A stretch of DNA of 64,000 nt from Methylobacterium sp. AMS5 (GTDB lineage: Bacteria; Pseudomonadota; Alphaproteobacteria; Rhizobiales; Beijerinckiaceae), in contig NZ_CP006992.1 in NCBI RefSeq assembly GCF_001542815.1, forward strand, positions 2,919,501-2,983,500. The letters are read 5' to 3'. Below the pieces are notes generated by a model. That model ran no database searches and was not told where the DNA came from. It saw nothing but the letters and a program-made list of their open reading frames with translations. Positions 5,638 to 16,185 of this stretch are shown one piece after another; position 1 is the stretch's first letter; each line of letters starts with the position of its first letter. The position numbers and the translations under genes are program-made.

Positions 5638-6096
5638 ATGCCATCCTTCCGCATCACGAGGAAAGTGCGTCACACGGCGACGCAGATGTATGACCTCGTC
5701 GCCGATATCGAGCGCTATCCCGAGTTCCTGCCGCTCTGCGAATCGCTGCGGGTGCTGCGCGACGCGGAGGGGCCGAACGGCTCGACGGTGCGGGTCGCGG
5801 AGATGGGTGTCGGCTACAAGGCGATCCGCGAGCGGTTCACCACCCGCGTGAGTCTCGACCGCGAGAACCGCAAGATCGTCGCCGAATATATCGACGGTCC
5901 ATTCAGGCATCTGGAGAACCGCTGGTCCTTCCGCGATGCCGAGGGCGGTGGCTGCGAGGTCGATTTCTTCATCACCTACGAGTTCAAGAGCCGGACCCTC
6001 GGCCTCCTTATGGGCACGATGTTCGACCGCGCCTTCCGCAAATTCACCGATGCGTTCGAGGCCCGCGCCAACGCGATCTACGGCGTGCCGGCTTAG
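5638..6096 (+). CDS. RatA/Coq10-like START-domain protein
   Basis: A 152-residue SRPBCC/polyketide-cyclase fold protein of the RatA/Coq10 family. Members bind ubiquinone or hydrophobic ligands; the E. coli homologue RatA was described as blocking 70S ribosome association, while eukaryotic Coq10 supports quinone function. Seen here: MYDLVADIERYPEFLPLCES at about 17-35, NRKIVAEYIDGPFRHLENRW, and the C-terminal helix LMGTMFDRAFRKFTDAFEARA. It starts six bases after lipA and is surely co-transcribed. No antitoxin gene neighbours it, so the 'toxin' label often given to this family should not be read as a toxin-antitoxin module. Confidence 0.88.
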   Translation: MPSFRITRKVRHTATQMYDLVADIERYPEFLPLCESLRVLRDAEGPNGSTVRVAEMGVGYKAIRERFTTRVSLDRENRKIVAEYIDGPFRHLENRWSFRDAEGGGCEVDFFITYEFKSRTLGLLMGTMFDRAFRKFTDAFEARANAIYGVPA

Positions 6097-6262
6097 AGTG
6101 ACTGACAAAACTCCCGGTCCCTGACCGTTCTCGCTCTGGCGATGACAGCGCGGCAGGCGTTGTGTGTGAGACACGCAGGCGCCACGGACGGAATTCCCTC
6201 CGCGCCTTCGTCGCCGGGCCGAGAACGATGCGTGAACGGGCACTTCAATCTGTGCCCCCGGC

Positions 6263-6688
6263 TCATCCACCCTTCCGGGCCGCGAGCAGGATACTGGTCT
6301 CGGAATTGGCGATCCCGTCGAACTGACGGATCGTGCGCAGGAGCGCGTCGAAATCGCCGAGCGTCGGCACCTCGATCTCGGCGACGATATCCCAGCGGCC
6401 ATTGGTGGTGTGAAGCGCCCGGATCTCCGGCAGGCCGGACAGGCGGCGGATCACGCTCTCCGCATGGCGCCCATCCACCTCGATCAGCGTCACCGCCCGC
6501 AAGCCCCCGGGCTCCGGGTTCCGCACCGTGATGGTGAAGCCGGTGATGATTCCGGACATCACAAGACGGTCGAGCCGGGCCCGCACCGTCGCCCGCGTGA
6601 CGCCGAGCGCCGCGGCGAGCTTGGCCACCGGCATCCGCGCCTCGGTTCGCAGCAGGGCGATGAGCTGACGATCGGTCGCGTCGAGCAT
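6263..6688 (-). CDS. Lrp/AsnC family transcriptional regulator
   Basis: A 141-residue Lrp/AsnC regulator. The N-terminal winged helix (residues 1-60) begins MLDATDRQLIALLRTEARMP and contains the helix-turn-helix VAKLAAALGVTRATVRARLD. The C-terminal RAM/ligand domain (65-138) carries GRWDIVAEIEVPTLGDFDAL. It is divergent from the ornithine cyclodeaminase gene across 97 bases, so the most likely target is that promoter and the effector is probably an amino acid such as ornithine or arginine. That link is inference from position. Confidence 0.92.
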   Translation of the reverse strand: MLDATDRQLIALLRTEARMPVAKLAAALGVTRATVRARLDRLVMSGIITGFTITVRNPEPGGLRAVTLIEVDGRHAESVIRRLSGLPEIRALHTTNGRWDIVAEIEVPTLGDFDALLRTIRQFDGIANSETSILLAARKGG

Positions 6689-6785
6689 GGTCTTTCCACT
6701 TTGAGCAGTTCAGCTTAGCAGATCGGACGATTGTCTGTCCCGATCGAGCAATTCTCCCGCTGTCGATTATCCGCTTGTCTCAGCC
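6689..6785. promoter_or_regulatory. divergent promoter region, Lrp regulator / ornithine cyclodeaminase
   Basis: The 97 bases between the two divergent start codons must hold both promoters and probably the Lrp-type binding site. A weak dyad, ATCGG at 6722-6726 against CCCGAT at 6739-6744, is the only symmetry I notice. No clear -35/-10 pair can be assigned by eye. Confidence 0.4.
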
Positions 6786-7850
6786 ATGCTTGCGCCACGG
6801 AAGATTCGGGAGACGGACGTGACGCGCTACATCGGCAGTGGTGAGATGGCGGCTCTGCTGCGCCGGGAGGGGCCGGAGCCGATCCTGCGTCGTCTCATCG
6901 ACGAACTCCGCGCCGATTTCCTGCGCTGGCCCGAATTCGATCTCGCCCCGCGCCTCGCGAGCCACTCGGCCGGCGGGGTGATCGAGCTGATGCCGATCGC
7001 GGATGCGCGGCTCTATACATTCAAGTTCGTCAACGGTCATCCCGGCAACACACGGCTGGGCAAGCAGACTGTCGTCGCCTTCGGCATGCTCGCGGACGTG
7101 GCGACGGGTTATCCGCTGCTGATCTGCGAGATGAGCGTGCTGACGGCCCTGCGCACGGCGGCGACCTCGGCGCTCGCGGCGTCCGTTCTCGCACGGCCCG
7201 AGAGCCGCTCCATGGCGCTGATCGGCACCGGCGCGCAGGCCGAGTTCCAGGCCCTCGCTTTCAAAATGGCACTCGGCATCAGCGAGATTCGGCTGTTCGA
7301 CGTCGATCCCGCGGCGATGGCGAAGGCGCGGGCCAACCTCGACGGCCATGGGTTGCGGCTCGTCTGCGCCCGCTCCATCGGTGAGGCGGTGGCGGGTGCC
7401 GACATCGTGACTACGGCGACCGCCGATAAGACCCGCGCCACGATCCTCACCCCCGGCCTCGTGGAGCCGGGCCAGCATCTCAACGCCATCGGCGGCGACT
7501 GCCCCGGCAAGACCGAGTTGCACCCGGACATCGTGGCCCGGGCCCGCACGATCGTGGAATACGAACCGCAATCGCGCATCGAGGGCGAGATCCAGCAGAT
7601 GCCTGCGGACTATCCCGTCACCGAATTGTGGCGCGTGCTGCGCGGCGACGCGCCGGGCCGCGTCGGCTGCGACGAGATCACCCTGTTCGACTCGGTCGGC
7701 TTTGCGCTGGAGGACTTTTCGGCCTTGCGCTGCCTGAAGGACATCGCCGGCCCCGGCCCGGGGCTCGATCTCATCCCCGAGCCGAAGGACCCGAAGGATC
7801 TGTTCGGGTCGGTCTTTTCACCGGGCATCGGGTACGAGCAAGCGGCGTAA
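6786..7850 (+). CDS. ocd: ornithine cyclodeaminase
   Basis: NAD-dependent enzyme of the OCD/mu-crystallin family that converts L-ornithine to L-proline and ammonia. The length of 354 residues matches the bacterial OCD type of Agrobacterium. Seen: the substrate-binding part with IELMPIADARLYTFKFVNGH, MSVLTALRTAATSALAA, the Rossmann motif MALIGTGAQAEFQALAF near 140 and FDVDPAA at the end of the second strand, then IGGDCPGKTELHP. Related alanine dehydrogenases and ketimine reductases share the fold, but the C-terminal GRVGCDEITLFDSVGFALEDF fits OCD best. It is probably controlled by the divergent Lrp-family regulator. Confidence 0.88.
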   Translation: MLAPRKIRETDVTRYIGSGEMAALLRREGPEPILRRLIDELRADFLRWPEFDLAPRLASHSAGGVIELMPIADARLYTFKFVNGHPGNTRLGKQTVVAFGMLADVATGYPLLICEMSVLTALRTAATSALAASVLARPESRSMALIGTGAQAEFQALAFKMALGISEIRLFDVDPAAMAKARANLDGHGLRLVCARSIGEAVAGADIVTTATADKTRATILTPGLVEPGQHLNAIGGDCPGKTELHPDIVARARTIVEYEPQSRIEGEIQQMPADYPVTELWRVLRGDAPGRVGCDEITLFDSVGFALEDFSALRCLKDIAGPGPGLDLIPEPKDPKDLFGSVFSPGIGYEQAA

Positions 7851-8083
7851 CTGGCTCGTACAGAGAGTCGGTGGCCCGTGCGACGCGTTCTTCGAAACCG
7901 AGGCCGCATCACCATCAGTCTCCGGGAGAAACCAGGGGCCCAGGTTGTGAAAGGCGAATACCCACGCACAAGCTCGGCACAAGCCACGTGGTTCTGTATG
8001 ATGCCTCCAGAGAATAAGACGCCATGATGCCGACAGGCCAAAGATTCTCGGAATGAGGACTGTGCACTTTTTGTCGTAGGCCG

Positions 8084-9124
8084 ATGATTTCTGCCATTCA
8101 ATCCGAAGGCCGGACCGTCGGCGCGCGTATCGCCGCGATCGCGACGCATCTCCCCGAGCGTGTCCTCACGAACGAACATCTCGCCGAACTCTATCCAGAT
8201 TGGTCCTCCGAGAAGATTCTCGACAAGACCGGCATCCGCGAACGTCGTGTGGCTGCAGAGTACGAGACGGCAGGCGACCTGGCCTTTCATGCCGCCGAGA
8301 AGTTATTTGCGGCAGGCGATTGCGCGCGCGAGGATATCGATTTCCTCATTTTCTGCACCCAGGCGCCCGACTATCTGCTGCCAACCACGGCCTGCCTCCT
8401 CCAAGACCGGCTCGGCTTGGGTCGGCATGTCGGCGCGCTCGACGTGAATCTCGGGTGCTCCGGCTTCGTCTACGGTCTCGCTTTGGCAACCGGGCTGATC
8501 GCGGCGGGCGCAGCGCGCAACGTGCTTCTCCTGACGGCCGACACCTATTCCAAGTTCATCCATGAAGGCGACAAGAGCGTCCGCACGTTGTTCGGTGACG
8601 GTTCCGCAGCAACACTGATCACGGCGAGCAGCAAGTCCGTAATCGGCCCTTTTGTGTTCGGCACCGATGGCGCGGGCGGCAAGGATCTGATCGTCGAAGC
8701 GGGTGGCTTTCGCACTCCTCGGGGGCCGGAGACTGGTCTGGCAGGAGAGGATTCACACGGCAATGTTCGTTCGCCCGAACACCTATACATGAATGGTGCC
8801 AATGTGATGAGCTTTTCCTTGCGGGAGGTGCCGCGCACCTTTGCGCGCCTGCTGGAGGCAAGCGGCCTAACCCAAGCGGACGTGGATCACGTCGTCCTTC
8901 ATCAAGCGAACAAGCTTATGTTGAACGCGCTGCAGCGCAAGATGGGCCTCCCCGCCGAAAAGGTGCCCCACCACTACGAGGACATCGGTAACACCGTGTC
9001 GTCGACCATCCCCTTCGTTCTGGCAAACCTGCGGGATAAGGGGCAAATGGCACTCGGTCGCCGCCTCGTCGTGATCGGGTTCGGCGTCGGACTCTCGTGG
9101 GCCGGGGCTTCGATCGTCTGCTGA
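8084..9124 (+). CDS. ketoacyl-ACP synthase III (KAS III, FabH-like), first copy
   Basis: A 346-residue thiolase-fold condensing enzyme. The catalytic triad is intact: Cys125 in NLGCSGFVYGLA, His273 in LHQANK and Asn303 in DIGNTVSSTIP. Family phrases GIRERRVAA, CTQAPDYLLPTTAC and LFGDGSAATLI are present. KAS III enzymes condense an acyl-CoA with malonyl-ACP, or esterify or amidate acyl groups in accessory pathways. It opens a compact operon with a dedicated ACP, a second KAS III and an SDR, so a role outside primary fatty acid synthesis is likely; plsX, the usual fabH neighbour, is absent. The gene looks less GC-rich by eye than its surroundings, which may point to horizontal transfer. Confidence 0.9.
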   Translation: MISAIQSEGRTVGARIAAIATHLPERVLTNEHLAELYPDWSSEKILDKTGIRERRVAAEYETAGDLAFHAAEKLFAAGDCAREDIDFLIFCTQAPDYLLPTTACLLQDRLGLGRHVGALDVNLGCSGFVYGLALATGLIAAGAARNVLLLTADTYSKFIHEGDKSVRTLFGDGSAATLITASSKSVIGPFVFGTDGAGGKDLIVEAGGFRTPRGPETGLAGEDSHGNVRSPEHLYMNGANVMSFSLREVPRTFARLLEASGLTQADVDHVVLHQANKLMLNALQRKMGLPAEKVPHHYEDIGNTVSSTIPFVLANLRDKGQMALGRRLVVIGFGVGLSWAGASIVC

Positions 9125-9143
9125 GCTTCATGAAGGGATGACA

Positions 9144-9377
9144 ATGAGCGGCTTTTACGAAGAACTCGCTGAAATCCTTGAGGTCGAGCCGGACCAAATG
9201 ACGGCCGACCTGCGCCTGGAAAATACGTCGTGGGACTCGCTGGCTGTGGTCTCCACCATTGCCCTGATCGATGAGCAGTATGACAGGGCTGTCAACGCCA
9301 CGGCCCTCGCTGCGTGCGAGACAGTCGGCGACATCGAGCGCTTGATTGCAGCACGCCCGACCGAGAGCGAGGCGTAG
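9144..9377 (+). CDS. acyl carrier protein, accessory pathway
   Basis: A 77-residue acidic, helical carrier protein. The phosphopantetheine attachment site is SWDSLAVVS, with Ser32 in the DSL motif. This is more divergent than the housekeeping AcpP (usual context GADSLDTVEL). The start is set at 9144 because GAAGGG at 9132-9137 touches the upstream ATG at 9138 but lies six bases from this one. It sits 19 bases after the first KAS III, and the second KAS III ATG follows its stop codon directly. It is presumably the carrier on which the operon's acyl chain is built; a holo-ACP synthase would have to come from elsewhere. Confidence 0.85.
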   Translation: MSGFYEELAEILEVEPDQMTADLRLENTSWDSLAVVSTIALIDEQYDRAVNATALAACETVGDIERLIAARPTESEA

Positions 9378-10424
9378 ATGGCCTCGAGCGGGCAGACCGC
9401 GCGCACGTCGGGATCCCGAATCGCCGGGGTCGTCTCCTGTCTGCCCTCACGTCGAATCGAGAACGAGGACTTCCTCGATCGTTTCGGCGACAAGGTCCAC
9501 GAGGTGGTCAAGATGACCGGCGTCAGGACCCGCTATTGGGTCGAGGACGGCACCACGACCTCCGACTTGTGCGCCGCCGCTGCCGAATGCTTGCTTGACC
9601 GTCTCGGCTGGGAACGCGGGAGCGTCGACGGCATCATCTTCGTCTCGCAGACGCCGGATTACCGGCTGCCGGCGACATCCTGCGTGCTGCAGCATCGGCT
9701 CGGCCTACGCACGGGCATTCTCGCCTTCGACGTGTCGCTGGGCTGCTCGGGTTATCCCTACGGCCTCTGGATGGCGATGATGATGGTCCAGACCGGCGCG
9801 GCCAAGCGGATCCTCCTCGCCGTCGGCGACACCAGCAGTATCATGAACGATCCCGACGATCGCGGCACCGCCCTTCTGTTCGGCGATGCCGGAACCGTGA
9901 CCGCGATCGAAGCGACCGTTCCCGACGCCGATCCTGCTTGGTTCATTCTCGGTACCGACGGCCAGGGGGCCGACAACCTCATCGTCCCCCAGGGTGCCTT
10001 CCGCAAACGCGAGGCCACCGGCCGATTGGAGGGCCATCCCCTCGACAAGCTGTTCATGGATGGCGGTGAGGTGTTCAACTTCACGCTCAAGGCCGTGCCG
10101 TCGCTGATCAGGGACACCATGGCCGCGGCGGGCGAGGAGTTCGAGGATTACGACATGTTCCTCCTCCATCAGGCGAACGCGTTCATGATCCGACACCTCG
10201 CCAAGAAAGCGAAGCTGCCGCCGGAGAAGGTGCCGATCAACATCGACCGCTACGGCAACACCAGCAGCGCGACCTTGCCGCTGCTCATGACCACCGACCG
10301 GGCGGATGCGCTGATGACAGGCGATTGCCAGGTGGCCCTGTTCGGCTTCGGGGTCGGCTACTCGTGGGCAGCGGCCTCGATGCGGATCGGCCCGCTCCGC
10401 TGCTGCGAGACGATTTCGCTGTGA
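9378..10424 (+). CDS. ketoacyl-ACP synthase III (KAS III), second copy
   Basis: A 348-residue KAS III with an intact triad: Cys123 in SLGCSGYPYGL, His264 in LLHQANAF, Asn294 in RYGNTSSATLP. It is clearly homologous to the first copy but diverged (VRTRYWVEDG, QTPDYRLPATSCVLQ), so the two enzymes probably have different acyl substrates or act in sequence rather than being a recent duplication. It begins immediately after the ACP stop and its TGA overlaps the GTG of the SDR gene, which implies translational coupling. The final residues (SMRIGPLRCCETISL) run past the family's usual end. Confidence 0.9.
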   Translation: MASSGQTARTSGSRIAGVVSCLPSRRIENEDFLDRFGDKVHEVVKMTGVRTRYWVEDGTTTSDLCAAAAECLLDRLGWERGSVDGIIFVSQTPDYRLPATSCVLQHRLGLRTGILAFDVSLGCSGYPYGLWMAMMMVQTGAAKRILLAVGDTSSIMNDPDDRGTALLFGDAGTVTAIEATVPDADPAWFILGTDGQGADNLIVPQGAFRKREATGRLEGHPLDKLFMDGGEVFNFTLKAVPSLIRDTMAAAGEEFEDYDMFLLHQANAFMIRHLAKKAKLPPEKVPINIDRYGNTSSATLPLLMTTDRADALMTGDCQVALFGFGVGYSWAAASMRIGPLRCCETISL

Positions 10425-11182
10425 TCTTCTCCCGCGAAGCCTTCGAGGGACGTCACTTCCTGATCACCGGAGCCTCATCGGGAATAGGTCAGCATACGGC
10501 GGTGCGGCTGGCAGAGGCCGGAGCGCGGGTGGCCCTGATCGGCCGCAACACCGAACGCCTTGCCGCGATCGCTGCCTTGCTCGCTGGCAACGGCCATTCC
10601 AGCCATTCCGCCGATCTGAGCGACGCCGAGGTAACCGCGGACCTCGTTCAGGGGATCGCCAAGCAGCACGGTCGTTTCTGCGGCATTTTCCATTCTGCGG
10701 GCACGGCACTGATCCTTCCGGCGCGGGCCACCAAGAACCGCCATCTCGACGATGTCTTCGCGGCGGGCGTCCGCGGCGCGTTCGGAGTCGCTCGGGCGGC
10801 TGCGAAGAAGGACGTCGTGATGGATGGCGGATCTCTGGTGTTCATGTCGTCGGTGTCGTCGATGCGCGGGCGCCCCGGCATGAGCGCCTATTCGGCTGCC
10901 AAGGCTGCGGTGGACGGCATGGTGCGCGTACTGGCGTCGGAAATGGCCGACCGTCGCATCCGGGTGAATTCAATCGTTGCAGGCGGGATCGAGACGGCGA
11001 TGCACCGTGATTTCACGGAATCCGTCGGCAGCGAAATGGTGCGGAACTACGAGGCGCTGCACATGCTCGGTTTTGGCCGACCCGACGATGTCGCCCATGC
11101 TGCGATGTTTCTACTCAGCGATGCTTCGCGCTGGATCACAGGCAGCAATATGGTCGTCGACGGGGGGTATACCGCCAAGTGA
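10421..11182 (+). CDS. short-chain dehydrogenase/reductase (3-oxoacyl-ACP reductase-like)
   Basis: A 253-residue classical SDR. The NAD(P) motif TGASSGIG is at residues 16-23, the catalytic tyrosine and lysine are in SAYSAAKAAVDG, and the C-terminus WITGSNMVVDGGYTAK is typical of FabG-like enzymes. The usual NNAG is changed to HSAG. Start is GTG at 10421, overlapping the TGA of the second KAS III; a longer ORF upstream simply reads through that gene in another frame. In context it would reduce the 3-oxoacyl-ACP formed by the KAS III enzymes to a 3-hydroxyacyl-ACP. The last 72 bases are overlapped by the convergent Rieske gene. Confidence 0.88.
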   Translation: MIFSREAFEGRHFLITGASSGIGQHTAVRLAEAGARVALIGRNTERLAAIAALLAGNGHSSHSADLSDAEVTADLVQGIAKQHGRFCGIFHSAGTALILPARATKNRHLDDVFAAGVRGAFGVARAAAKKDVVMDGGSLVFMSSVSSMRGRPGMSAYSAAKAAVDGMVRVLASEMADRRIRVNSIVAGGIETAMHRDFTESVGSEMVRNYEALHMLGFGRPDDVAHAAMFLLSDASRWITGSNMVVDGGYTAK

Positions 11183-12259
11183 GCCGCCACCGATGAGGTG
11201 TGTGTAGGCGCGCATGAACGCGGCGATCCGGATCTCGTCGCGACCGATCACGCCGGGCTTCTCCGACAGTTCGACGCCCCGCTGAACATTCTCTAGGATC
11301 GCGCGGTCCTCGTCGATCACCGCGCGACCCAGCGCTTTGCCCGACTGATTGATCATATCCTGTGCCGCTCGCTGCGCGCGGGTCAGGTCGAGCTTCGGTT
11401 CGAAAAGCCGAAAGCGCAGTCCGGTTTCCGTTGCCGACAGAGGCAAAGCGTGGCCGACATAGAAAGACAGACCCTGCGTCGATGAGATGAACAGGTTGGG
11501 AAAGATGTGAATGTGAAAAAAGGAGTCGTGGGTGAACGCGCGCGTATCGAGGTAGGCGAGCGCCTTCTGTCGCCGGGCCTCTCCGGCCGTCGCGGTGCGC
11601 GGGAAGTGGCTACTGGAATGCGGTCCGTCGAACCGTTCCTGCTCGATGCCTGCCCTGCCAATCCCGAGCGTTTTCACAAAGGTGTCCTGATGGACGACGG
11701 AGCAATGGTAGCATTCGAGAACGTTCTCGACGAGCAGCTTCCAATTTGCTGCATGGATGAGCGTTCCGGTATCGATCTCCGGCCCGAAACAGGAACCGAT
11801 CTGCTCGAGCAGTGGATAGAATGCACCCAGATACTCGCGCAGAGACGGCCCGCCGCTCCGCTTACGAAAAAATACGAAAATCCCACACGTCTCAATTTCG
11901 TAACGGGTCAGGCATAACCGCTCGCGATCATCGAGCGCGAATCCGTCGCGGCGCGGCATGCCATGCGGGAAACCGGTGCTGTCGAAGCTCCAGCCATGAT
12001 AGGCACACATCAGCGGCCGGTTGCCGCGCTCGCCCGGCTGGATGCGGTTGAACCGATGGCTGCACACATTGGCGAATGCCCGGATCTCGCCGCGGAAGTT
12101 CTGCAGGACGGTCGCCGTGTTCTTGTAATCGACGCAGACGAAATCGCGATCCGCGGCGAGTTCTCCTGCCAGCGCTCCGAATTGCCAAAGTGGATCGAAC
12201 AGAGTGTTCAGTTCGTCGCCGAGGATCTCGGGACGGTAGTAATTTGCGCAAGGCAGCAT
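11111..12259 (-). CDS. Rieske non-heme iron oxygenase, alpha subunit type
   Basis: A 382-residue aromatic-ring-hydroxylating-type oxygenase. The Rieske [2Fe-2S] ligands are Cys66/His68 (CSH) and Cys85/His88 (CAYHGW). The mononuclear iron motif is ENVLECYHCSVVH with His185 and His190, followed by a START-like catalytic domain. This subgroup also includes choline/glycine-betaine monooxygenases and natural-product hydroxylases. No reductase, ferredoxin or beta subunit is adjacent, so electron delivery must come from elsewhere. It faces the KAS III operon and its 3' end overlaps the SDR gene by 72 bases. A role in hydroxylating the operon's product, or a linked metabolite, is inference from position. 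Confidence 0.87.
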   Translation of the reverse strand: MLPCANYYRPEILGDELNTLFDPLWQFGALAGELAADRDFVCVDYKNTATVLQNFRGEIRAFANVCSHRFNRIQPGERGNRPLMCAYHGWSFDSTGFPHGMPRRDGFALDDRERLCLTRYEIETCGIFVFFRKRSGGPSLREYLGAFYPLLEQIGSCFGPEIDTGTLIHAANWKLLVENVLECYHCSVVHQDTFVKTLGIGRAGIEQERFDGPHSSSHFPRTATAGEARRQKALAYLDTRAFTHDSFFHIHIFPNLFISSTQGLSFYVGHALPLSATETGLRFRLFEPKLDLTRAQRAAQDMINQSGKALGRAVIDEDRAILENVQRGVELSEKPGVIGRDEIRIAAFMRAYTHLIGGGSLGGIPPVDDHIAACDPARSIAE

Positions 12260-12577
12260 TGGCGTTTCGTTCTCGAACCAGCCTTCTCACAACTCTCTCG
12301 ACATTCTCGCCTCTCTTTCGAGGTCACGCGGCGACCATGCCGAAGGAGTTTTCCCCGCACCACTCAAGTTCGTGGCGGCGAAGGAGGAGCGAAACAGGAT
12401 TATGATGACCATCAGTTGATGTAAAGTAGCGCACTAGGTCGCCCTATGTCGACGACCCGAGGCAAGGCCCGTCCGTACGGTGAAATGCAATGCCAACCTA
12501 ACAAAATAGCTTAGCATGCGAATGTTTACACCTCGAATATCGGGGAAAACACATAGAGTCAAAGAAGGGTCGGCAAA
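12260..12577. other. AT-richer intergenic region between divergent Rieske and NeuD-type genes
   Basis: This 318-base gap separates two divergent genes and is visibly AT-richer than the genome around it, especially 12419-12570. It should hold promoters in both directions. I see no convincing ORF, RNA or repeat in it. Confidence 0.45.
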
Positions 12578-13228
12578 ATGGCAGCGCGGGAACGCCTTAT
12601 TCTGGTCGGCGCCGGCGGATTCGGGCGGGAAGTGTACTTCTGGGCAGGAGACTGCCACGCGGCAGGGACGTTGCCTCCCCTCGCCGGGTACATCGATGAC
12701 GTGGTCCAACAATTGCCCGGCTATGACCTACCCCGAATTTCAAGCCTGCAGGACTACACGCCGACACCGGGCGATCTGTTCGTGGTCGCGTTGGGCGCGC
12801 CTGCCAAGAAGCGCCGCGTGGTCGAGTTGCTTCAGTCGCGTGGCGCCCGTTTCGCGACGTTGCGCCATCCGACCGCGACCGTCGTGCGCACGGCGTCGAT
12901 TGCTGAGGGCGTCATCATGTGCCCCTATACCATGGCGCTGCCCGACACCCGTATCGAGCGCTTCGTGACGCTGAACAATTATTCGGGCTTTGGCCATGAC
13001 AGCGTGTGCGGCGAGTTCACGACGCTGAGTTCGATGGTCGATGTCACGGGCTATGTGCGGATTGGCAGGGATGTCCTGATCGGTTCGGGGGCACGTCTCT
13101 TGCCGAAGGTGACAATCGGCGACGGTGCGACGATCGGGGCAGGTTCGATCGTGGTCCGCTCGGTTAAACCGAACATGACGGTGTTCGCCGCTCCTGCCAA
13201 GCAGCTCTCGATGAAGCCAAAAAGCTGA
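12578..13228 (+). CDS. NeuD/PglD-type sugar O/N-acyltransferase
   Basis: A 216-residue enzyme of the sialic acid O-acetyltransferase NeuD / PglD family. The N-terminal Rossmann-like part (LILVGAGGFGREVYFWAGD, residues 7-25) is followed by a left-handed beta helix built of hexapeptide repeats (about 100-205, including VRIGRDVLIGSGARLLPKVT and IGDGATIGAGS). The catalytic histidine is expected at His140 in FGHDSVCGEFTTL, matching the GHDC/GHDS signature. PglD acetylates a UDP-4-amino sugar; NeuD modifies sialic acid. Here the acyl donor could be acetyl-CoA or the 3-hydroxyacyl group from the nearby KAS III/ACP operon, which is a hypothesis only. No sugar aminotransferase or nucleotidyltransferase is adjacent. 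Confidence 0.85.
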   Translation: MAARERLILVGAGGFGREVYFWAGDCHAAGTLPPLAGYIDDVVQQLPGYDLPRISSLQDYTPTPGDLFVVALGAPAKKRRVVELLQSRGARFATLRHPTATVVRTASIAEGVIMCPYTMALPDTRIERFVTLNNYSGFGHDSVCGEFTTLSSMVDVTGYVRIGRDVLIGSGARLLPKVTIGDGATIGAGSIVVRSVKPNMTVFAAPAKQLSMKPKS

Positions 13229-13417
13229 GCGGCAGCGGGAATTCGAAATCCGAAAATTTCGGACAGAGCGATTTCTGATCGAATCAATTCTTGCGCTGAC
13301 AATTCTTCGCTTCTCAACGCCGTGCGCTGAATGGGATTTTTGCCCGCCTTCTAATGCCCCGGCTCAAGCGCTGGTTAACAAAATTATTCACGCAAAGGGA
13401 TCAAGACCGCACCCGGC

Positions 13418-15571
13418 TCACGCGGAGCGGTGCGTCTCGAGCCAACCTTTCCACATGGAGCGGAAAGCGTCGCCCATGTCCCGCGCGAAGCGCGCATGGT
13501 CCATGACCGGACCATCGAACATGCGCTCGCGCAGGTTCGTGCGGATGGCGCGGAGGCGATCCGGATTATGTGCGAGTTCCAGCGCGCGGGTCGCATAACC
13601 GTCGGGCGTGTCGCCTACGAGTTCTTCCAGTCCAATCGCCTCCAGCAGCGATGAACCGACCCGCGAGACCGCTTGGCTGCCCCGCAGCGCGATGAAGGGG
13701 ACGCCCATGCAGAGCGTGTCGCAACTCGTCGTCCCACCGTTGTAGGGAAACGAATCGAGGGCGATGTCGAACTCGTGGTAGAGGTCGAAATATGTCGTCG
13801 TGACGCGCGGACGCAGCCGCAGACGGTCGAGCGGTATCCCGGCCATCGACAGACGTGCACTGACCTGTTCCCGAATGACGGCCGTCTCGACATCGGCCAC
13901 GACCACGAACAGACGCGCGTCGGGAAGCGCCTGCAGGATGGCGGCCCAGGTCTTCAAAGCGCCGTCGCTGATCTTCTCGAAGCGGTTCATGACACCGAAG
14001 GTGACGAAGCCGTTGTCTTCGAAGGGCGGTCGCTCCCGCACGGGCGGGATATCGTGATGCGCCTCGTAGGTGGCGGAGACGCCCGGCAGCCACCACACCG
14101 TCTCCGTGTGCAGGCTTTCCGTCTGGCCGGGCACGTCGAGACGGGCATCGGTCAGGCGGTAATCCATGGCGCGCAGCCCCGTGGTCGCCGGGTGGCCCAT
14201 CCACGTGACCTGAACCGGTGCCGGCTTCCGAGCGAAGACAAGCAAACGGTGGCCGGCGCTGTGGCCGGACAGATCGACGAGGATATCGATCTTCTCCGAC
14301 TCGATGAGGTCTGCGGCCTCGTCGTCGTTGAGGCCGGCGATGTTGTGCCAACCATCGAACAGAGTCCGCAGGCGGGCCGAAACGGCGTCTTCCGCCGCCT
14401 GGGTCATGTAGGCGCGCGCCTCGAACTGCCTCCGATCCAAGTGGCGCAGGAACGGCTCGATGAAGCGGGCGACGGCGTGGGTGCAGAGGTCGCCCGAGAC
14501 GAATCCGATTCGCAGGCGGCGGTCGGGATCACGATCGTTGGCGAAGGGGCGCCTGCGCAGCAGCGGATCGGCGAAACGTGCGCCGAAGCTGCGCGCGTCG
14601 GCCGCGTAGTCGGTGTGCGGAACGCCCTCGGCATAGAGCTTGGTGAACAGCCGGTTGGAATGGGCGGTGATATGCCTGGGATCGGTCGCGAGCGCCCGGT
14701 CGAAACTTGCGAGCGCCTCGGGCAAGTGGCCGAGACTCTTCAGGCTGCAACCGAGATTGTTGTGCGCGTTGGAGAGGCCGGGATCGAGCGCGACGGCACG
14801 CCGCGCATGGGTCACGGCCGCGCTGTGATGACTGACGCGCTGATAGACACCGGACAGATTCGAATGCGCGATCGCGAGGTTGGGATTGAGGGAGACCGCC
14901 CGCTCCAAAGCCGAGATGGCGCCGGTGTAGTCGCCCAGCGTGATCAGGACCGCACCGAGGCTGCTGAAATAGCCGGCGTTGTCGGGGTCGCGGTAGATCG
15001 CGATGCTGAACAGGTCGAACGCCTGCTGGTGTCGGCCCTTCCCCGCGGCGATGGCGCCCGCGAGATGGGTCGCGTTGGCGTGGGTTTCGTCCAGGCCAAT
15101 GACGAGGTCGGCCAGGGTCTCCGCAGCGGCGAGGTCGCCCGCGATGTAGCGCTCCTGTCCCCGCGCGAAGGCATGGTCGGCGAAATCCTTGAGGATCGCG
15201 CGTGATGCATCGTCGGCGATGTCCCGATTCCGGAATTGCTCCATCAGGGCACGCGCCTCGTCGAGCCGGTTCAGCACGAGGAGCGTCACGGCCAGAGCCA
15301 GCCAATGGCGTGGCTGCTCGGGCTCAGCCCTCAGGGCGGCGACGAAATGCGGGACCGCCGGTCCGGGTCCGTCCGCTTTGCTGGTCAGGAGGCCGAGTTC
15401 GTGGTGCGTGCCCGCGTGATGCGGCACCGCGTCCAGCACGCGCTGAAGGTTGCGGCGGGCTTTCTCGTAACGTCCGGCGGTGCGGTGGGCGATGGCCTTG
15501 GCGAGGGTGCGCTCGACCGAATCCGCGGCGTGAGCGTGCTCGATCGTCCGCGATTTTCGATGTTCGCGCAT
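13418..15571 (-). CDS. TPR protein with GT41 O-GlcNAc-transferase-like glycosyltransferase domain
   Basis: A 717-residue cytosolic protein. The N-terminal half (about 15-330) is a run of tetratricopeptide repeats (for example LGDYTGAISALERAVSLNPN and LGHLPEALASFDRALATDPR). The C-terminal half is a SPINDLY/OGT-type glycosyltransferase: RIGFVSGDLCTHAVARFIEP, DILVDLSGHSAGHRL, PVQVTWMGHPATTGL and the nucleotide-binding DIALDSFPYNGGTTSCDTL. This architecture resembles Caulobacter FlmG, which glycosylates flagellins, so a protein O-glycosyltransferase is likely. The start is moved to 15571 because AAGGAG lies eight bases upstream. It converges on the NeuD-type gene, which suggests a shared glycan pathway. 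The acceptor protein is unknown. Confidence 0.87.
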   Translation of the reverse strand: MREHRKSRTIEHAHAADSVERTLAKAIAHRTAGRYEKARRNLQRVLDAVPHHAGTHHELGLLTSKADGPGPAVPHFVAALRAEPEQPRHWLALAVTLLVLNRLDEARALMEQFRNRDIADDASRAILKDFADHAFARGQERYIAGDLAAAETLADLVIGLDETHANATHLAGAIAAGKGRHQQAFDLFSIAIYRDPDNAGYFSSLGAVLITLGDYTGAISALERAVSLNPNLAIAHSNLSGVYQRVSHHSAAVTHARRAVALDPGLSNAHNNLGCSLKSLGHLPEALASFDRALATDPRHITAHSNRLFTKLYAEGVPHTDYAADARSFGARFADPLLRRRPFANDRDPDRRLRIGFVSGDLCTHAVARFIEPFLRHLDRRQFEARAYMTQAAEDAVSARLRTLFDGWHNIAGLNDDEAADLIESEKIDILVDLSGHSAGHRLLVFARKPAPVQVTWMGHPATTGLRAMDYRLTDARLDVPGQTESLHTETVWWLPGVSATYEAHHDIPPVRERPPFEDNGFVTFGVMNRFEKISDGALKTWAAILQALPDARLFVVVADVETAVIREQVSARLSMAGIPLDRLRLRPRVTTTYFDLYHEFDIALDSFPYNGGTTSCDTLCMGVPFIALRGSQAVSRVGSSLLEAIGLEELVGDTPDGYATRALELAHNPDRLRAIRTNLRERMFDGPVMDHARFARDMGDAFRSMWKGWLETHRSA

Positions 15572-15846
15572 GCCCGACGCTCCTTGAGAAGGCAGCACGG
15601 TAAGGACTCTATGCTCAACAAATTATTAATATCGGCTCTCATTCAGGCTGGCGCGAGACCGATCCAAGCCCTGGGAAACTGCCCCGTTCAAGGATGATCC
15701 GCCTCTCACCGTGCTGCGCTGCGGCGGCTGCAGGGCAGCTCACATGAGGGCGGGATCAAACACCGGGCGTGCTTCACACAAAACTTCCGGTGGTGAGTGT
15801 TCGCGCTCCGGCGACGAAAGCGCGGCGCGGGTTCTGTGGGCGAAGC

Positions 15847-16185
15847 TCAACCGGGCTTGCATCCGGGCGGCAGGAACCGCCCCGCCCGCGCTTCGAGCAG
15901 GCGCACCAGCGCCGGCTCCATGAAGGCGTCGTCATCGCGCACATCGAGGCAGACGATCCGGGCGTGCCGGAGCGCCGGCCGGAAGCGGCGCATCAGCTTG
16001 CGCCGATGCGCGCGCTCCATCACCACGATGATCTCCGCCCAGGCGAGGTGATCGGCCTCCACGGGCTTGTCCGCGTCGTCCGAGACACCCGCCGAAGCCG
16101 TCTCCAGGCCGGGCCACAGCGAAAACACCTGCTCCGCGGTCGGGCTGCGGGCGCGCGCCCGGCCGCAGACGAACAGGATCCTCAC
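15847..16185 (-). CDS. low-molecular-weight protein tyrosine phosphatase-like protein
   Basis: A short (112-residue) member of the LMW phosphatase fold. The P-loop sits at the N-terminus: ILFVCGRARARSPTAE gives CX5RS, the signature of the catalytic cysteine loop, but without the usual GN of CXGNXCRS. Phrases AWAEIIVVMERAHRRKL and CLDVRDDDAFMEP correspond to the family's middle and acid-loop regions, though a clean DP loop is not visible, so activity is uncertain. It starts with GTG overlapping the TGA of the ABC exporter gene and is therefore translationally coupled to it. Being 40 residues shorter than canonical LMW-PTPs is usual for this subgroup. Confidence 0.75.
   Translation of the reverse strand: MRILFVCGRARARSPTAEQVFSLWPGLETASAGVSDDADKPVEADHLAWAEIIVVMERAHRRKLMRRFRPALRHARIVCLDVRDDDAFMEPALVRLLEARAGRFLPPGCKPG

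Follow-up and report, generated by a model that had tools for sequence, protein, structure and literature searches.

Methylobacterium sp. AMS5 carries a seven-gene islet that is probably a module for modification of its flagellin glycan. The islet lies in a 64-kb stretch of DNA that was analyzed as a whole (the window; the source genome has the code G000, other G codes denote genomes of relatives and L codes denote loci). Its enzymes would make a hydroxyacyl group and put it on an amino sugar, and the sugar would be O-linked to flagellin. The islet is a new combination of known parts: a double-KAS cassette with two ketoacyl-acyl carrier protein synthases of type III (KAS III), a VioB-type step and flagellin transfer by a tetratricopeptide repeat (TPR)-GT41 enzyme, plus a Rieske oxygenase; the acyl structure and the Rieske step are predicted. 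The features, in window coordinates, are as follows.

7847..15874, no strand: acquired islet as a whole, delimited by comparison with relatives and GC content
8084..9124, + strand: KAS1 (KAS III no. 1), 346 aa, intact triad, closest Protein Data Bank (PDB) entry 3gwa (E 1.8e-130)
9138..9377, + strand: dedicated acyl carrier protein (ACP), 79 aa, WDSL site, between KAS1 and KAS2
9378..10424, + strand: KAS2 (KAS III no. 2), 348 aa, intact triad, closest PDB entry 4efi (E 1.2e-126)
10421..11182, + strand: short-chain dehydrogenase/reductase (SDR), 3-oxoacyl-ACP reductase-like, 253 aa, GTG start picked to agree with the G038 copy, overlaps KAS2
11111..12259, - strand: Rieske non-haem iron oxygenase alpha subunit, 382 aa
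12578..13228, + strand: NeuD/PglD/VioB-type hexapeptide N-acyltransferase, 216 aa, TIGR03570 at 177.1 bits (cut-off 160.8)
13418..15571, - strand: TPR plus GT41 protein O-glycosyltransferase, 717 aa, Pfam PF13844 at 132.8 bits (cut-off 25)

A first-pass annotation, made from the sequence alone, had named these seven genes at 8084-15571, and families and coordinates bear out each of them. Motifs and gene order likewise agree with its description of two KAS III enzymes that have intact Cys-His-Asn triads, flank the ACP gene and are coupled to an SDR. KAS1 and KAS2 fall in different clades of a maximum-likelihood tree. Both have a Leu where the organism's own FabH has its gating Phe, at a position that we take to be that of E. 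coli Phe87. The Ser of the ACP (WDSL) and the His of the NeuD protein are present, and the nearest solved structure to the latter is named VioB (7txp, E 4.9e-29). The Rieske protein retains CxH, CxxH, two His ligands and an acidic position, at which Glu stands in 42 of 54 aligned Rieske proteins (that of the window among them) and Asp in 10. It is similar to naphthalene dioxygenase and, along most of the protein, also to a carnitine monooxygenase subunit; the 3' end of its gene shares 72 bp with the SDR gene. The GT41 gene is the sole one found in the genome.

The seven-gene block is an acquired insertion at this site, as the first-pass annotation had supposed from its composition and layout. 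In G107, the flanking genes are kept and ~720 bp separate the equivalents of window positions 7846 and 15875. In G014, the equivalents of positions 6092 and 15872 lie ~50 bp apart. G075 and G040 lack the islet at this site too, while in G065, the fifth relative compared, the alignment covers the ABC side only. Window 7925-15648 (7.7 kb) recurs at ~88% identity in G038, at another chromosomal place and between other genes. The block had looked AT-richer by eye, and a scan of the window in 5.2-kb stretches (step 200 bases) placed the lowest GC in the stretch from 8201 (0.615 vs 0.685 for the window). The GT41 gene, at 0.665, is nearer the host value than the rest of the islet. The genes do face one another, four on the + strand being followed by -, + and -. 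No tRNA was found in the 64-kb window, and no direct or inverted repeat of at least 11 bases is common to the islet ends (7701-8090 vs 15561-15960). KAS2 at ~70% identity or more occurs in three of 111 genus genomes (G000 counted), beside GT41 in all three. Across the order, one genome of 297, the window's own, has KAS2 at E 1e-75; that draw took only a sample of the genus, and G038 and G006 are not among its matches. The wider place (window 6093-15871, between lipA/coq10-like genes and an ABC transporter) is variable, since asnC-like and ornithine cyclodeaminase genes there are also missing in G014, G075 and G040.

The link to flagellin comes from GT41 neighborhoods in the genus. A search of 110 genus genomes with the last 360 residues of the protein (E 1e-40) found GT41 in 51 genomes at 57 places, the best 49 of which were examined (the eight weakest, at 32-36% identity, were left out). 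A flagellin gene lies within ~10 kb of GT41 in 22 of the 49 loci and within 5 kb in 19; one of the 22, that of G037, is a weak match at 10.3 kb, and contig ends truncate several loci. A close aminotransferase is found within 2.1 kb in 15 of the 49. M. brachiatum B0021 (G006) has most of the cassette in such a setting, in the order DegT aminotransferase, GT41, NeuD, Rieske, SDR, KAS2, ACP, integrase-type transposase genes, flagellin and FlbT, the last two confirmed by Pfam. The same genome has two GT41 genes (L045 and L063) with a flagellin near each; the flagellins are 97% alike, and the acyl cassette is at one of them only.

The genes that adjoin GT41 vary by genome. Some loci have WbqC, PhyH and methyltransferase genes, and others have pairs of WbqC and GH130-like genes (the WbqC/GH130-like assignment is from Pfam matches below the cut-off). 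In G044, a GT41 (80%) adjoins a different acyl cassette of AMP ligase, GNAT, KAS III, ACP, two SDR and NeuD genes, and still other loci have the present cassette. From these gene contents, we read the varying neighbors as exchangeable decorations of one flagellin glycan. Methylobacterium also has an acyl cassette with no GT41 in the fetched flanks, in the order FkbH-like, ACP, KAS III, ACP, SDR and NeuD (L046, L047, L049-L052 and L090-L093, e.g. L051:7873-13672; some small ACPs are uncalled). A DegT aminotransferase follows it in five of the 10 loci, and six of the seven genomes with that enzyme's 46-50% class have it there.

The acyl cassette also recurs far outside the genus. A KAS2 scan of the genome collection gave 128 relatives, of which the best 80 were retained, with KAS1 and KAS2 labels assigned by best BLAST match. 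A full core, defined as KAS1-like, KAS2-like, ACP, SDR and NeuD genes within the fetched flanks, was found in 15 loci among these 80. They span three phyla: five are from Sphingomonadales, four from Undibacterium, three from Acidobacteriota and one each from Amylibacter, a Methylotenera metagenome-assembled genome (MAG) and a Gemmatimonadaceae MAG. In all four Undibacterium loci, the row is GT41, aminotransferase, KAS1, ACP, KAS2, SDR, NeuD and Rieske (L102:5544-13469, also L103-L105). The GT41 carries TPRs by Pfam in the one locus tested, and flagellin had no match in the fetched flanks of these loci. The seven genes had been guessed to form a functional unit, and this is supported by the recurrence of the cassette beside TPR-GT41 in both Methylobacterium and Undibacterium and by the many GT41 relatives near flagellin. 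In two Sphingomonas cassettes, an alpha/beta hydrolase gene, perhaps for a pathway thioesterase, lies just upstream of KAS1 (L097:7838-8698, by Pfam; L099:7790-8614, by eye); it is absent from the window's islet. Azospirillum and Asticcacaulis loci (L109, L117 and others) have a KAS2-like gene near Rieske and SDR genes, partly with ACP and mostly without a detected NeuD, and may use the same chemistry for a different product.

We chose 29 of the 80 loci and, with Methylobacterium added, built a maximum-likelihood tree from their 58 KAS proteins. One branch holds KAS2 with its kin (99/98), and a second holds most KAS1 (84/90). On the KAS2 side are three proteins that BLAST had labelled KAS1, those of L147 and L130 and the second such protein of L142, so L147, one of the 15 full-core loci, may have no true KAS1. 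Both halves of the tree put the window's KAS pair among Sphingomonadales sequences. The KAS2 proteins of the window and G038 group with the MAG L095 (100/99), and that of G006 groups with Sphingomonas sp. 8AM (100/98). These different partners suggest two entries, in which Methylobacterium gained the cassette from Sphingomonadales-like donors, each time beside a flagellin-type GT41. Misbinning of L095 is possible, and the grouping could also be explained by transfer in the opposite direction.

Known systems provide counterparts for most of the parts. The O-polysaccharide of Flavobacterium psychrophilum carries a 3,5-dihydroxyhexanoyl amide, established by nuclear magnetic resonance, on a 4-amino sugar, and its locus contains the ketoacyl-ACP synthases wfpC and wfpE, the ACP wfpD, the reductase wfpF and the PglD homologue wfpG (PMC6519341). 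The assignment of wfpC-wfpG to the acyl group is a prediction in that study as well (PMC6519341). Matched by gene content alone, the islet is alike in having two different KAS, an ACP, a reductase and a PglD/NeuD-type acyltransferase. It differs in that wfpC-wfpG serves a lipopolysaccharide (LPS) O-antigen (with UDP-Qui2NAc4N), and the passages on that locus mention neither Rieske nor GT41 (PMC6519341). Two rounds, each with a condensation and a reduction, would fit the two KAS III of the islet.

On flagellin itself, the closest counterpart by family is the viosamine island of Pseudomonas syringae pv. tabaci 6605, where vioS, acp, vioR, vioB and vioA go with N-(3-hydroxy-1-oxobutyl) viosamine (PMC3927599). 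Like this island, the islet holds KAS III, ACP, 3-oxoacyl-ACP reductase and VioB-type acyltransferase genes (PMC3927599). Unlike it, the islet has no VioA aminotransferase, a homologue of which is elsewhere in the genome at G000:C1:3735707, and no VioT or VioM methyltransferase among its seven genes; GT41 is there instead. VioT (1173 aa) adds the viosamine sugar onto a rhamnose chain (PMC3927599). The viosamine island has one KAS III and no Rieske among its seven open reading frames (ORFs), whereas the islet has a second KAS III and a Rieske gene (PMC3927599). The first-pass annotation had pointed to KAS III, ACP and SDR genes in P. aeruginosa flagellin islands, and rightly so: all seven ORFs of the viosamine island have counterparts in strain PAK, including vioS/orfC, acp/orfB, vioR/orfD, vioB/orfE and vioA/orfA (PMC3927599). 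Flagellin islands of Aeromonas group II and Enterobacteriaceae also hold fatty-acid-type genes, such as ACP and ketoacyl-ACP reductase (PMC7874193, PMC4875605). Unlike the islet, they have LuxE, LuxC and a CoA/AMP ligase, with pseudaminic-acid genes in Aeromonas, and the word Rieske is absent from the main texts of both reports (PMC7874193, PMC4875605).

For the transfer step, the model is FlmG of Caulobacter crescentus, a soluble flagellin O-glycosyltransferase with an N-terminal flagellin-binding TPR domain and a C-terminal glycosyltransferase domain (PMC7591256). The islet GT41 is alike in architecture, with the same order of domains, and Caulobacter vibrioides is one of two among 14 control genomes with a GT41 match. 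Like FlmG, GT41s of the genus are linked to flagellin, although the islet's own locus is not. FlmG uses pseudaminic acid, for which NeuB is needed (PMC7591256); G000 gave no NeuB match.

The genes present point to an N-acyl 4-amino-4,6-dideoxyhexose as the probable donor sugar, in preference to a nonulosonate. The first-pass annotation had left both an amino and a nonulosonic sugar in play, and the genome content favors the former. NeuB had no match in G000, G038, G006 or G044, and it was found in nine of the 110 genus genomes and in nine of the 14 controls. RmlB is over the cut-off elsewhere in G000, and a DesI/VioA-like DegT aminotransferase, which the first-pass annotation does not name, is encoded at G000:C1:3735707-3737014. 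Because NeuB had no match and these two genes are present, an amino-deoxyhexose is favored, and a nonulosonate donor for G000 is disfavored. The best NCBIfam match of the aminotransferase is DesI, at 315.7 bits against a cut-off of 650, and is a lead only. Close homologues of it occur in 19 genus genomes, all 19 of which also have GT41, and a relative lies within the cassette cluster in G006 and the four Undibacterium genomes. NeuB is found within 11 kb of GT41 in five of the 49 loci, all five also with flagellin. In these loci (L208, L209, L211, L213 and L216), the GT41 is more distant (46-50%), flagellin is at most 3.3 kb away and NeuB is 5-11 kb away; the GT41s of the genus thus seem to pair with two kinds of donor. 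G000 and G038 each have a giant flagellin-like ORF of ~1560 aa (L076:15958-19899 into L077, a 1567-aa open frame, in G000; L079:2346-7034 in G038), ~21 kb and ~9 kb, respectively, from the sugar aminotransferase.

A pathway can be proposed, the chemistry of which we infer throughout from what was observed, namely gene content, motifs, insertion, recurrence and the linkage of GT41 to flagellin. RmlB and the DesI/VioA-like aminotransferase would supply a dTDP-4-amino-4,6-dideoxyhexose. KAS1 would start a chain on the dedicated ACP from acetyl-CoA and malonyl units, and the SDR would reduce it. KAS2 would then add a second unit and the SDR would reduce again, giving a 3,5-dihydroxyhexanoyl-type group if the kinds of gene in F. 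psychrophilum are a guide. The VioB/NeuD enzyme would move this group onto the 4-amine. The weakest step is that of the Rieske oxygenase, which may oxygenate either the sugar or its acyl chain. Finally, in the cytoplasm, the TPR-GT41 enzyme would O-glycosylate flagellin with the acylated sugar.

Several observations weigh against this reading. According to the first-pass annotation, KAS, ACP and SDR genes that consistently occur without NeuD, Rieske and GT41 would break the link between them, and the 15 full-core loci, which have NeuD by definition, show such an order in part. GT41 is in the fetched flanks of four, and 11 show none. Some Rieske gene is present in 12, at 30% identity or more in eight; it is absent from three and has just 25-27% identity in four, those of Undibacterium. 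In the one Undibacterium Rieske protein tested, VanA_C outscores the ring-hydroxylase domain, and the subfamily differs from that of the window. In Sphingomonas, Legionellaceae and Acidobacteriaceae, the cassettes lie amid genes that by eye appear polysaccharide-like, one sugar transferase being confirmed by Pfam. Because most full-core loci show no GT41 in the fetched flanks and the loci inspected outside Undibacterium have this appearance, the acyl cassette is not flagellin-specific. Within Methylobacterium, 11 of the 49 GT41 loci show neither flagellin nor another query gene, several of them with divergent GT41s or on short contigs. The islet's own GT41 has neither of the two partners, flagellin and the aminotransferase, within 10 kb; the aminotransferase is ~0.8 Mb from the islet, and the flagellins of G000 are also elsewhere.

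The cassette could instead decorate LPS or exopolysaccharide, with the adjacent GT41 as a passenger. The polysaccharide-like surroundings in other bacteria and the O-polysaccharide locus of the F. psychrophilum counterpart (PMC6519341) argue for this. We nevertheless consider it unlikely: the islet has no Wzx/Wzy or priming transferase among its seven genes, KAS2 stands beside GT41 in all three genus genomes that have it after what the tree suggests were two entries, and the Undibacterium cassette also adjoins TPR-GT41. A stand-alone natural-product cluster, with the Rieske protein as tailoring enzyme, was the alternative named in the first-pass annotation. Genes of the KAS III, ACP, SDR and Rieske families are found in secondary metabolism as well. 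Such a cluster would, however, hardly explain a VioB-type transferase and GT41 inside the block or the aminotransferase that joins the cassette in G006 and Undibacterium, and the seven genes include none for export or regulation; we regard it as highly improbable. We give similarly little credence to a role of NeuD in acylating a nonulosonic (pseudaminic-type) donor for the GT41. The FlmG precedent (PMC7591256) and the five genomes with more distant GT41s near NeuB and flagellin point that way, but the NeuB searches of G000, G038, G006 and G044 do not.

The last alternative is a variant of the flagellin-glycan module, with which its probability overlaps, and concerns the acyl group. The product may be a single-round 3-hydroxybutyryl group, as on the modified viosamine of P. 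syringae, or some other short acyl group; KAS1 and KAS2 would then be alternatives and not act in successive rounds. P. syringae has one KAS III, vioS (PMC3927599). G006 keeps KAS2, ACP, SDR, Rieske and NeuD without KAS1, of which tblastn found no remnant besides the match of the KAS1 query to KAS2, so a single KAS III may suffice, a further point against the module as proposed. However, the G006 cassette could be a decayed one, given the transposase genes next to it. By inspection of the tree, the KAS1 and KAS2 clades branch largely alike, as a co-inherited pair with two roles would, and the 3,5-dihydroxyhexanoyl locus of F. psychrophilum has two different ketoacyl-ACP synthases (PMC6519341). 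A single round or other short chain is possible but not the likelier outcome.

A wider proposal is more tentative, and we hold it slightly more doubtful than probable. Methylobacterium may have a switching system for its flagellin glycan, in which a resident TPR-GT41 is served by exchangeable cassettes (WbqC/PhyH/methyltransferase, WbqC/GH130-like, ligase-KAS and double-KAS/Rieske). The last would have been taken at least twice from Sphingomonadales and would make a Rieske-oxidised polyhydroxyacyl amide sugar undescribed on any flagellin. In the literature searched, by title and abstract opening, no paper on a Methylobacterium flagellin glycan was found, and among the matches listed none links a Rieske oxygenase with flagellin glycosylation.

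Our reading makes a testable prediction of a flagellin glycan in plant-associated bacteria of a common group. It gives the recurring double-KAS/ACP/SDR/VioB module, present in three phyla, a likely product, and, within the limits of this literature search, oxygenation of such a sugar would be a novelty among flagellin glycans. The reading further points to a swapping of acyl decorations as cassettes beside the flagellin transferase, and to their transfer between Sphingomonadales and Methylobacterium. Plant immunity takes flagellin as one of its main signals, and phages may use it as a receptor. A swappable surface decoration may matter for the recognition of these plant-associated bacteria.

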